A stretch of 36,610 nucleotides of DNA from Thermoplasmata archaeon (GCA_021792595.1 JAJYUI010000004.1:1-36610); one strand, 5' to 3'. Shown: positions 1,875-5,400, counted from the stretch's first letter. Numbers and translations: made by a program. Notes: a model not told the origin generated them from the sequence alone.

Positions 1875-2147
1875 ATGTCACTAATTACACTTTTGACAAC
1901 TGCGACAAATTCATCTGCCCTGTCCGGAATTACCGGCCGGATCTACGAGATCATAATCTCAATTTCTGCAATACTGATTGCAGTGCTCTGGATCCCCATA
2001 GCAATCTCTTTCTTCAGCGAGGATGAAAACAGGAGGCTGAATGCCAAACTGAGGCTGAAGAATGCGATTATTGGCACAATCATCTATGTGCTGGCCGTCA
2101 GTGGCACCCTGTACACAGTATTTTACTACATTGCAACCGGCGCCTAG
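1875..2147 (+). CDS. Small two-helix membrane protein, VirB2/CedA1-like pilin candidate
   Basis: The 90-residue product has two hydrophobic helices, about residues 23-46 and 68-86. A short basic loop with SEDENRRLNAKLRLKNAIIG separates them. This helix, positive loop, helix layout, with a small-residue motif entering helix 2, is typical of VirB2/TrbC-type conjugative pilins and of the small Ced/Ted pilin subunits of Thermoproteota. I see no separate cleavable signal peptide. It is the first gene of a four-gene cassette, with its stop 2 nt before the next possible start. If the assignment is right, it would polymerise into a pilus or line a DNA-transfer channel. The topology is directly visible. 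The homology is inferred from topology, size and neighbours, since such short proteins are hard to place. Confidence 0.55.
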   Translation: MSLITLLTTATNSSALSGITGRIYEIIISISAILIAVLWIPIAISFFSEDENRRLNAKLRLKNAIIGTIIYVLAVSGTLYTVFYYIATGA

Positions 2148-2149
2148 GG

Positions 2150-3172
2150 GTGCCTGACGTGAACCTGGAACTTTCCTTGTCGATAATTTTCAGGACCGTA
2201 GAGTCTGCCCTATTCTCCTCAGCTGGAGGACTATGGTATGTAACGGTCAAGTATGGGTTATCCCCTGGTTATGCATATCTTGGCAGCGAACTGTCAGCCC
2301 ATGGGTACCTCAGAATCTACAATTTCTTTTTTAACACTTTCGTGAGCGAGATTGTCTATCTTGTGATGATACTGGCTGCCCTGTATCTACTTTTCAGGAA
2401 CTCCGTCGGAGAACCAGCGCCGTCCATTCCCACGCTCGCCCGCCTGTTTTTCTCATTTTCCCTTGCAATCTTTGCCTTCACCGTTTGCATTGACCTCATG
2501 CGCTATACAGATTCCATCTACACTTACACATGGAACGGCCTGGACACCGATTGGTATGCCCTCATGCCTCTTGGAAGTTCCAGCAACGCAACCGGAATCC
2601 AGGATTTGGGCTCGACGACTGTTATTTCTCTCCTCTTCATCACTTCATATTTTGTTGCCACCGGATCGCTCCTGTCTATGCTCGAGATCAGGCAGGCAAT
2701 CATTCTTGTCCTTATGGTGATACTGCCAGTCTCTTCGCTACTACTGGCGTTGCCGTTCACGGAGAAAATTGCAGCGGGGATGTGGAAGCTTTTCGCAGAG
2801 ATGACGGTGGTTCCCTTCATTGTACTCATCTGCATAGCGATAGCTGAATCAGTACATGGTGACCCGCTGCTGCAGATTGCCCTGATACTTCTTGCTTCGG
2901 GAAGCCCCTTCCTGCTGCACAATGGTTCAAGGATCCTTTACGGTGCAGGGATAATGGGTTCATTCACCGGCCTGATGGCTGGGATGGGATCAATGAGATA
3001 TGGAATCACGGGCCAGGTTGCAGGGATCTCGTCTGCCCTCAAACCGTCCCTGGGAGTTGCGATAAAGGGAGGAAGGGGGCCAATAGATACAAACAAGCAG
3101 GGGGAGTTCACCATTAACTGGAGAGAAGTCTTCAGGGACTCATTCAGAGGCTCGGGGGAAAGACGCGATTGA
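2150..3172 (+). CDS. Polytopic membrane protein, VirB6/CedA-like
   Basis: The 340-residue product has six or seven hydrophobic helices, roughly at residues 63-83, 95-115, 155-177, 183-203, 213-235, 240-258 and perhaps 265-285. The first 60 residues are only moderately hydrophobic and the C-terminal tail (about 55 residues) is polar and charged. VirB6 and archaeal CedA, the inner-membrane channel components of conjugation-type machines, have this size and build. Two GTG codons can start it. GTG 2150 directly follows the upstream stop. GTG 2159 has AGGGGTG about 6 nt before it and may be the real start. The gene overlaps the next by 4 nt (TTGA). Function is inferred from topology and its place before a VirB4-like ATPase. 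Confidence 0.55.
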   Translation: MPDVNLELSLSIIFRTVESALFSSAGGLWYVTVKYGLSPGYAYLGSELSAHGYLRIYNFFFNTFVSEIVYLVMILAALYLLFRNSVGEPAPSIPTLARLFFSFSLAIFAFTVCIDLMRYTDSIYTYTWNGLDTDWYALMPLGSSSNATGIQDLGSTTVISLLFITSYFVATGSLLSMLEIRQAIILVLMVILPVSSLLLALPFTEKIAAGMWKLFAEMTVVPFIVLICIAIAESVHGDPLLQIALILLASGSPFLLHNGSRILYGAGIMGSFTGLMAGMGSMRYGITGQVAGISSALKPSLGVAIKGGRGPIDTNKQGEFTINWREVFRDSFRGSGERRD

Positions 3173-3858
3173 CAGAGGAGAGGACCCCACCCAATGTCAG
3201 CCTGTATGAATCAAAGATCGCTGGTCTTGACTGGAATGTTGCTGTCTTTCTTACACTTGCAATATCTGTATCTTCTGTGCTGAGCCTTGTTGACGTGACT
3301 GCGGGGCTTGTTGCATTCCTTACGGTTCCCGTTATCCTTGCACTTGGGTTGAATGGGTGGTCGCTCCCCTTGTCGATACTTGAGTCTGTAGCAAGGCACC
3401 ATGAATGGATGGTCGAAGCCCCGATTTCCACCAGATTCATGAACGACCACTTGCTAATCCAAACCAGGGACTCTCTATGCGCTATAATCAAGCTTGTGGC
3501 ATCTGATCTCTCCCTCCTGTCACAGTCGTCGATTGACTCCGTGAGGAGAGGCCTCGCTTCATTGATAGAGCAGTTGAAGGTTGAAGCAAGCTTCATTTCA
3601 ATTCCGCATGGAATCGGGGATGGTTCACTCAAAGGACCGGATGAAGACTACAATCTGCTGGTCGATTTTGTGTTGAAGGACGTACATTACTTCAACACAT
3701 ACCTGATCCTGAAGGTTAGGAAATATGACGGAGATTCGGGGTTAATGGAACTCGAGGAGGAAGTGAACAGGACATTGGGGTTCCTCAGGCAATGCGGATT
3801 TTCAGCGGACGAAGTGACAGAAGATTCCTTGCGGGAAGTGATGAAGTGGAACCCGTGA
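3169..3858 (+). CDS. VirB3-like membrane segment plus VirB4 N-terminal domain
   Basis: The 229-residue product has two closely spaced hydrophobic helices (about residues 22-40 and 43-62), followed by a soluble domain. The soluble part carries LCAIIKLVASDLSLLSQSS and RRGLASLIEQLKVEASFISI, which match the pattern at the start of VirB4 proteins (VirB3-VirB4 fusions: two helices, then the VirB4 N-domain). It ends where the ATPase part of a VirB4 would continue, and the next gene supplies that part. The TTG start at 3169 overlaps the previous stop (TTGA), with a G-rich ribosome site just before it. The 3' end overlaps the next gene by GTGA. Either the VirB4 is naturally split or a frameshift near 3855 separates the halves. 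Confidence 0.55.
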   Translation: MTEERTPPNVSLYESKIAGLDWNVAVFLTLAISVSSVLSLVDVTAGLVAFLTVPVILALGLNGWSLPLSILESVARHHEWMVEAPISTRFMNDHLLIQTRDSLCAIIKLVASDLSLLSQSSIDSVRRGLASLIEQLKVEASFISIPHGIGDGSLKGPDEDYNLLVDFVLKDVHYFNTYLILKVRKYDGDSGLMELEEEVNRTLGFLRQCGFSADEVTEDSLREVMKWNP

Positions 3859-5117
3859 AGAAATTCAGGGTAGCAGGCAATGGGGTGATTTCCCCAGATG
3901 GCCTCTCCGGATATCTGAGCGTATCGGAGGCAAGAATCGTGCCTGACTTCCGTTATCTGAAGATCGTTGAATCCCTGGGGATCGGAGTGTCTCTCAGGTT
4001 GGATCTGAACCCGTATGACAATGGAAAATCGCAGCCTGTCATACGGAGAATGATTGCAGATCGGGCCTCAGAACTGAAGATTTCCAGGGTAATGAATAAC
4101 AGGGGGGCGATAGAGGAGCAGGTCGCTTTCCTGAGAAACCTGATTGGAAGGATCGAGAATAACAGGACCAGGGCGGTAAACGTTCAATACGTCGTCAAGG
4201 TGACGGAACACCATCCCGCGATTCTGAAGGATAGCCTGGGGCGTATTGAAAGCGCGTTCGCAGCGATGGGGATCAGGACAAAACTGTCCAGGTTCATCGG
4301 TCGCAGGAGATTGCTGTCAGTCACAAACCCGTTCTCCACCTCAAGAGGAAATTACCTGATGGACTCCACCACACTGGGAGGTATTCTCCCTGTTTCATTC
4401 AGCCCTGAACCTCACTTGGGGATACTTATCGGAATTGATGAAAGCAACGAGTATCCCGTGTTCCAGGACATATTCGAAGGAAACTCCTACAACTGCATTG
4501 TGTCAGGCGAGACTGGCAGCGGGAAGTCCTTCTTCACCAAGCTGCTTGTTTCCAGAATGCTCAGGAATGAGCTTGTAGGGGAAGTGCGAATTGTTGATCC
4601 TCTCGGGGAATATTCACCTGAACTGTTTCCCGGCTTCAGTGATAAAGTGGCAATAATCCATAGTGAAAACGTAGACGCAGAGAAACTGATCGGTGAGATA
4701 ACTGCAGGGTTTTCAGCCTCGGGAAGAAAACTTCTTGTGATTGATGAAGCCCACAGGCTTCTTGAGACCAGGCCTGCGAGAATAGCCCTTGATCGCCTTG
4801 CCCGACACTCCCGGCACAAGAACCTGTCCGTGATACCCATAACGCAGAACCTCACCGATTTCTTTGGAAGTGAAGAGGGCAGGTCGCTTGTTTCCAACTC
4901 AGGAAACATAATCTCCTTCAGGAACAAGCCCTTCCAGCTTTCAAAACTGAGTTCCGTGAGCGAACCTGGCACAGATTCACTGGACACGTCCGGGCTGATG
5001 GGTGGCAGAAGGGATCCGTATTCCGAATGCATATTCATTCATGGATCGGAGATCAGGAGGATTAGGGTAATATGTACCGTGAAAGAGCACCGGATGCTCA
5101 GTTATTCTGCTCCTTGA
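3855..5117 (+). CDS. VirB4/CedB/HerA-type ATPase of a DNA-transfer machine
   Basis: This would be the hexameric motor at the membrane that powers pilus assembly or DNA movement. In the 420-residue product, about 180 residues resembling the rest of the VirB4 N-domain come first. Walker A GETGSGKS is at about 218-225, Walker B LLVIDEAH at about 293-300, and the VirB4/HerA sensor motif ITQN at about 329-332. I chose GTG 3855, which gives a 4-nt GTGA overlap with the upstream gene. An in-frame ATG at 3792 lies inside that gene and lacks a clear ribosome site. The ATPase family call is strong. The link to DNA import rather than export rests on the neighbours and on the lack of a relaxase or VirD4-type coupling protein. 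The 3' end overlaps a converging gene by 20 nt. Confidence 0.8.
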   Translation: MKKFRVAGNGVISPDGLSGYLSVSEARIVPDFRYLKIVESLGIGVSLRLDLNPYDNGKSQPVIRRMIADRASELKISRVMNNRGAIEEQVAFLRNLIGRIENNRTRAVNVQYVVKVTEHHPAILKDSLGRIESAFAAMGIRTKLSRFIGRRRLLSVTNPFSTSRGNYLMDSTTLGGILPVSFSPEPHLGILIGIDESNEYPVFQDIFEGNSYNCIVSGETGSGKSFFTKLLVSRMLRNELVGEVRIVDPLGEYSPELFPGFSDKVAIIHSENVDAEKLIGEITAGFSASGRKLLVIDEAHRLLETRPARIALDRLARHSRHKNLSVIPITQNLTDFFGSEEGRSLVSNSGNIISFRNKPFQLSKLSSVSEPGTDSLDTSGLMGGRRDPYSECIFIHGSEIRRIRVICTVKEHRMLSYSAP

Positions 5118-5400
5118 GCCTCTTCTCTCTCTCCTTCTCGTCAACAAGCAGCAGGGTCAGAACCCCGAACACAAGGAGAACCACAACGAAGTCATAAAGA
5201 CCAACATCTCCCCATGTGTCGTAAAGAATGGACCAGACAAGATAGAAGCTGATGGCAATAATTATTGAAAGGAGCCCAAAGAAGCGGTAAATGTTTGGAA
5301 CCGTCACTTTCGAAAGAGCGAAACCTGCAGCCTTCCGGCCTGGAATCCTGCCAAGCTTCTCCCTTGCCTCTTTCATTGCCCTTGAGTTCCTTATCCCCAT
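5098..5400 (-). CDS. Small two-helix membrane protein, function unknown
   Basis: The 100-residue product has a basic N-terminus (about 33 residues rich in Arg and Lys). Two hydrophobic helices follow at about 38-57 and 67-85, and it ends in a highly charged tail with EKEREKRLKEQN. It has no motif I recognise. The gene converges on the VirB4-like ATPase gene and overlaps its end by 20 nt. Its ATG lies 92 bp from the divergent mptD start. A TATA-like TTTAATTA (5437-5430, minus) about 30 bp upstream would give a leaderless or very short-leader mRNA. It could be a Thermoplasmatales-specific membrane protein. A role with the adjacent DNA-transfer cassette is possible but unsupported beyond proximity. 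Confidence 0.65.
   Translation of the reverse strand: MGIRNSRAMKEAREKLGRIPGRKAAGFALSKVTVPNIYRFFGLLSIIIAISFYLVWSILYDTWGDVGLYDFVVVLLVFGVLTLLLVDEKEREKRLKEQNN

Follow-up and report, generated by a model that had tools for sequence, protein, structure and literature searches.

Four head-to-tail genes at positions 1875–5117 of a 36,610-nucleotide stretch of Thermoplasmata archaeon DNA (GCA_021792595.1 JAJYUI010000004.1:1-36610; the whole stretch is referred to as the window, and is contig 45 of a genome estimated to be 85% complete) probably constitute a minimal, domesticated type IV secretion system (T4SS), a fixed chromosomal trait most likely moving DNA between cells for recombination and repair. 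Judged by sequence comparison, a VirB2-type pilin is present in this cassette beside a VirB4 ATPase. Almost every member of the window's family carries the cassette on the chromosome, usually in the same place; it is therefore probably not a piece of a plasmid but a resident device by which DNA passes from cell to cell. An earlier note on this DNA had described four such genes linked by TTGA and GTGA overlaps, together with Walker A, Walker B and ITQN motifs; all of these open reading frames (ORFs) and motifs were located on the + strand, as listed below.

1875..2147, + strand: gene 1, VirB2-like pilin, 90 amino acids; PF18895 over cut-off
2150..3172, + strand: gene 2, probable VirB6/CedA/TedA-like polytopic membrane protein, 340 amino acids, GTG start; fold match and position after the pilin
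3169..3858, + strand: gene 3, VirB3-like helices and first part of the VirB4 N-domain, 229 amino acids, TTG start within TTGA
3855..5117, + strand: gene 4, VirB4, second part of the N-domain and FtsK/HerA-superfamily ATPase domain, 420 amino acids
4506..4529, + strand: Walker A, GETGSGKS; from the sequence, conserved in the alignment
4731..4748, + strand: Walker B, LLVIDE; from the sequence, E298 invariant in the alignment
4839..4850, + strand: ITQN motif of VirB4-type ATPases; from the sequence, Q331 invariant in the alignment

The genes are joined successively by a 2-base gap, a TTGA overlap and a GTGA overlap; gene 4 starts at the GTG within GTGA, and the longest ORF of the same frame would begin at 3792, inside gene 3. 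These frames are not a product of chance, because the arrangement is shared by other genomes of the order and a pilin profile built from 29 homologues matches 92 of its 117 genomes, nearly always once each.

Pilin, membrane protein and split VirB4

Gene 1 encodes a protein with two transmembrane helices, a charged loop between them and no N-terminal signal segment, which scores 27.1 bits against Pfam PF18895 (T4SS_pilin; curated cut-off 26.6). Because this margin is small, the 29 homologues, all from different genomes, were scanned; 27 match PF18895 (best E-value 9.9e-8), and two also match TrbC/VirB2. The two-helix form is found in nearly all pilin homologues of the window's family, and most of those in other families of the order have an additional N-terminal hydrophobic segment. 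The pilin keeps a median identity of 54% across the compared loci, and its profile gave no better than E 0.027 in hhalign against a single Saccharibacteria pilin, although both match PF18895. Another genome has a tandem array of five pilin-domain matches close to its VirB4 gene (near L061; G040:C1:1018831-1023507), the ORFs concerned being 166–406 amino acids long.

Gene 4 is, on sequence grounds, a VirB4 ATPase. It matches the models TraC (6.5e-19), VirB4_plasma (mycoplasma VirB4; 3.2e-16) and conju_CD1110 (2.3e-13), compared with 1.2e-4 and 20.8 bits for the CedB model NF041017, the cut-off of which is 700, and 0.01–0.02 for HerA models. The CD1110 and TraC models match all of 16 gene-4 homologues (best 1.5e-29), and none of 21 genomes searched with the CedB model gave a score over its cut-off. 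Similarly, the gene 4 profile retrieves the VirB4 structure 4ag5 first from the PDB (7.9e-15). A single protein of 597–758 amino acids with N-terminal helices replaces the products of genes 3 and 4 in 24 loci, so gene 3 corresponds to the N-terminal portion of one VirB4 protein that is split in the window. A fused homologue from Ferroplasma acidarmanus, modelled from 44 sequences including the two pieces of the window (pLDDT 87.1, pTM 0.81), has VirB4 structures as its first 17 PDB fold matches; TrwK of R388 matches over the full length (E 5.4e-22, TMq 0.63) and the Thermoanaerobacter VirB4 structure at 1e-11, against 2.7e-7 or weaker for HerA-like structures and 5e-5 for TrwB. The grouping of the ATPase with HerA repair proteins, against which the earlier note had wished its reading to be checked, was thus decided in favor of VirB4. 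On a quick tree, the fused or split state changes at least five times, and the ATPase is never lost.

Two N-terminal helices precede the VirB4 domain in gene 3 and in the fused homologues, with weak Pfam matches to PrgI, TcpE and VirB3. In hhalign, a split VirB4-N/TrsD-like protein of a Saccharibacterium aligns with the soluble part of gene 3 at E 1.4e-5, and a PrgI/VirB3-like protein of the same organism with the gene 3 N-terminus at E 0.0014 over 42 residues; unrelated controls gave E 0.33–0.45. In other families, a gene of 192–249 amino acids before VirB4 was considered as VirB8 and dropped, because its N-terminus weakly matches PrgI and it occupies the position of gene 3.

Gene 2 encodes 340 amino acids with six to seven helices, and its AlphaFold2 model (pLDDT 77) finds TrwI/VirB6 of R388 (7o3v_G) as the best PDB fold match in Foldseek (E 0.1, probability 0.72); VirB6 chains account for seven of the top 18 fold matches. 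A one-to-one hhalign comparison with a Saccharibacteria VirB6 gave E 0.0029 (probability 11), against E 0.11–0.26 for two other polytopic proteins used as controls, and no meaningful match of the gene 2 profile to PDB sequences was obtained. The gene lies directly 3' of the pilin, as does VirB6 in the Saccharibacteria locus L123. On these comparisons, gene 2 is likely to be VirB6; the VirB6/CedA-like description given earlier stands as regards the layout of six to seven helices, the VirB6 match itself being weak. Genes 2 and 4 diverge fast, with median identities of 26–29%.

Distribution, chromosomal setting and associated ATPases

In the window's family, a hand count gives 71 of 77 listed members with the pilin, nearly always as one copy, and fainter matches extend to another family of the class. 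The pilin is a cleaner marker of the cassette than VirB4, a query for which hits 56 of 61 relatives but picks up HerA-like proteins in place of VirB4 in some of its weakest hits from other families. The loci include Ferroplasma acidarmanus, Thermoplasma sp. and Cuniculiplasma sp. Three further Thermoplasmata loci (L117, L119 and L120) have pilin-, VirB6- and VirB4-like genes with ORFs of 1277–1380 amino acids upstream.

The genes flanking the cassette in the window were named by inspection as MptD-like, NTPase, Trm1-like, UbiA-like and GGGP-synthase-like; among 53 loci, the MptD-like and NTPase genes lie beside the cassette in 22 and Trm1 in 19. The housekeeping character of the flanks, claimed beforehand, appears to be borne out by this inspection and by the conservation of the neighbors. 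No integrase, relaxase or mobile element was noticed near the cassette, the flanking proteins having been read without a family-library scan. One further neighbor, possibly an accessory subunit of the cassette, recurs at the corresponding position, again on the opposite strand, in 38 of the 53 loci, Ferroplasma-like loci not being among them:

5098..5400, − strand: 100-amino-acid protein with two transmembrane helices, convergent with gene 4 and overlapping its end; conserved neighbor

Pairwise distances for genes 1, 2 and 4 track those of the neighboring Trm1 (correlation r 0.80–0.89, 16 loci, 0 of 2000 permutations). Such congruent distances, together with the conserved flanks, are expected of a locus that is fixed in the chromosome and inherited vertically. 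A plasmid origin was rejected, as none of the plasmids searched gave a full-length match to the cassette proteins, and the relaxase family PF03432, the only one searched, was not found in the window's own genome or its family. A mobile, patchy distribution is not seen in a cassette that is nearly universal and single-copy in the family, with conserved flanks and congruent distances; the check on confinement to conjugative elements with a relaxase, raised beforehand as a counter-case, thus came out on the side of the earlier reading, and the picture favors a minimal T4SS that has been domesticated and passed on vertically.

The earlier statement that no coupling protein is nearby is correct locally and does not extend to the genome, in which a VirD4/TraD-like ATPase of 656 amino acids is encoded on another contig (G000:C15:176-2143, L154). 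This protein exceeds the cut-offs of PF10412 (45.9 bits), PF02534 (30.2 bits) and PF12696 (29.2 bits), and homologues are present in most genomes of the family. PF02534 was rejected as a coupling-protein probe, since most of its matches in the family are HerA beside NurA, and the gene was instead traced through the CedB model search. Its neighbors were named by inspection as citrate synthase-like and FAA-hydrolase-like. In another family (f3), a more distant homologue of this ATPase lies directly after VirB4; a second ATPase of 677–679 amino acids there (L057, L062, L063 and L064) overlaps the VirB4 stop codon and is a candidate for a linked coupling protein. HerA and NurA occur together in most genera of the window's family, with canonical HerA as a separate gene beside NurA; no association of the cassette with HerA-NurA was found, and no HerA gene lies within it.

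Relation to known systems

The Ted system of Thermoproteales (TedA, TedB and TedC) is similarly chromosomal, with a pilin followed directly by a seven-helix VirB6-like gene and a VirB4-like ATPase, and has no dedicated relaxosome (PMC9905601), for which the counterpart here is the PF03432 search. It was set apart by its published description from the present cassette, in which VirB4 directly follows VirB6, is split in two and has a VirB3-like helix pair; in which the pilin lacks an additional N-terminal segment, whereas TedC is processed at a signal peptide; and which includes no HerA, Rad50 or ParA gene. The Ced system of Sulfolobales and Desulfurococcales (CedA, CedA1, CedB and CedD) shares the three-part VirB2/VirB6/VirB4 layout and also spreads the VirB4 N-domain over two proteins, CedB and CedD covering different parts (PMC11868833). 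However, the ATPase domain here is confined to gene 4, while Ced has two ATPases, CedB and CedD, and gene 4, at 20.8 bits, falls short of CedB orthology. VirB3 homologues have been stated to be absent in archaea (PMC11868833); the VirB3-like segment present here, unlike in Ced, would, if confirmed, be an exception.

The same gene order is found in monoderm MPF-FATA systems of Patescibacteria/Saccharibacteria (L123), namely a PF18895 pilin, VirB6, a PrgI/VirB3-like protein, a VirB4-N piece and the VirB4 ATPase, and the best models for gene 4 are those of Gram-positive and mycoplasma VirB4. The present cassette differs from L123 in lacking an M23 peptidase and any linked coupling protein, and in the fusion of VirB3 to VirB4-N. 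What it has in common with Ced and Ted is a chromosomal set of VirB2, VirB6-like (the weak part) and VirB4-like genes with no PF03432 relaxase. Ced and Ted are thus the nearest functional models, and monoderm conjugation systems are the nearest by sequence; membership of a Ced/Ted type, as first proposed, reduces to an analogy, given the weak CedB score, the higher-scoring Gram-positive and mycoplasma models and the retained VirB3-like segment.

In Cuniculiplasma, genes CSP5_1185-1189 (arCOG05340, arCOG04034 and arCOG05369) were listed in 2016, with VirB4 and a separate VirD4-family ATPase, as type IV secretion components (PMC5155288), and almost certainly represent the same cluster. The claim that the machine was not yet described for the order therefore fails for this one genus; the passages found in that paper offer no VirB2, VirB3 or VirB6 assignment and propose no Ced/Ted counterpart. 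Similarly, VirB4 is mentioned for E-plasma (PMC10354927), with no pilin, VirB3, VirB6 or Ced/Ted comparison in the passages found. This comparison covers open-licence papers, and earlier descriptions elsewhere are possible.

Proposed function and alternatives

In the proposed mechanism, gene 1 would polymerise into a VirB2-type pilus, gene 2 would form a VirB6 membrane pore at the base of this pilus, and genes 3 and 4 would provide a VirB3-anchored VirB4 ATPase, in two pieces here. Like Ced and Ted, the machine would transfer DNA, probably single-stranded, from cell to cell in the service of recombination and repair, and the separate VirD4/TraD-like ATPase may feed the substrate in most genera. 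From the analysis as a whole, DNA exchange appears to be the best-supported function; the DNA substrate and the direction of its transfer are, like the pilus itself, what we infer from these models.

Several observations weigh against this proposal. The support comes from sequence, models and distribution. The gene 1 profile has no meaningful match among PDB sequences, including the solved CedA1 and TedC pilins; the VirB3 assignment depends on the alignment over 42 residues together with isolated Pfam matches at about E 0.1; and the VirB6 assignment of gene 2 is weak (Foldseek E 0.1, TM 0.2–0.3, hhalign probability 11). The VirD4-like ATPase stands alone among metabolic genes in the window's family, and searches did not recover it from genera g10 (Ferroplasma), g18 and g19; because it is unlinked to the cassette, has no N-terminal membrane helices and has such neighbors, its role with the cassette is put forward conditionally. 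Moreover, HerA-NurA is the proposed source of single-stranded DNA for Ced and Ted (PMC9905601), and searches recovered neither NurA nor canonical HerA, only divergent HerA-like proteins, from the window's genus, g14 and g15 (G000, G001, G002, G015 and G016, representing three genera, the window's own genome being 85% complete). These genera keep the cassette nonetheless, so that the Ced/Ted source of single-stranded DNA cannot be general here if the genomes are complete in this respect.

The same minimal T4SS could alternatively move proteins or link cells to other species, such as ARMAN/Micrarchaeota epibionts, a reading that is unlikely but deserves to be taken seriously: a T4SS can carry proteins, no PF03432 relaxase was found, HerA-NurA is missing in the window's genus, and cryo-electron tomography has revealed Thermoplasmatales pili or appendages of unexplained composition crossing ARMAN cell walls (PMC4110969). 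It is countered by Ced and Ted, the nearest characterised archaeal relatives by layout, being DNA systems (PMC9905601), and by the apparent presence of the cassette in families not known to meet ARMAN. A bolder combination, in which the VirB2-type pilus of the cassette is part of the pili or appendages joining Thermoplasmatales cells mutually and to ARMAN in acid mine drainage, carrying DNA across species, is a rather long shot.

There is a small chance that the cassette is the remnant or core of an integrated conjugative element or plasmid that is still mobile, as VirB4 and VirD4 homologues form the core of archaeal conjugative plasmids that likewise have no recognised relaxases (PMC12857230); the single copy per genome, the conserved flanks, the congruent distances and the failure to find a full-length plasmid match or a PF03432 relaxase already disfavor it. 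A degenerate, non-functional relic, suggested by the split VirB4 and the fast divergence of genes 2–4, is very improbable, for the Walker A, Walker B and ITQN motifs are intact, the repeated split and fused states have come about without ATPase loss, and the pilin is well conserved by its median of 54%. Finally, a HerA-type repair ATPase with unrelated membrane neighbors can be regarded as nearly negligible: gene 4 does match the DUF87/HerA superfamily, but VirB4 models and folds lead HerA by many orders of magnitude, the fold search contradicts it, canonical HerA is separate and beside NurA in other genera, and the gene order includes a T4SS pilin.

If true, a domesticated T4SS for DNA exchange would mean that conjugation machinery has become a resident core trait of this family, in an archaeal phylum other than Thermoproteota, from which domesticated machines of this kind are known. 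VirB3-VirB4 has been fused and split repeatedly, the VirD4-like ATPase is optional and HerA-NurA is absent from some genera; together these features suggest which machine parts are dispensable. Ferroplasma populations recombine heavily (PMC2704941), and pili and appendages link Thermoplasmatales to ARMAN cells (PMC4110969); the cassette supplies named genes for two questions, the means of DNA exchange in these archaea and the composition of the pili between their cells.

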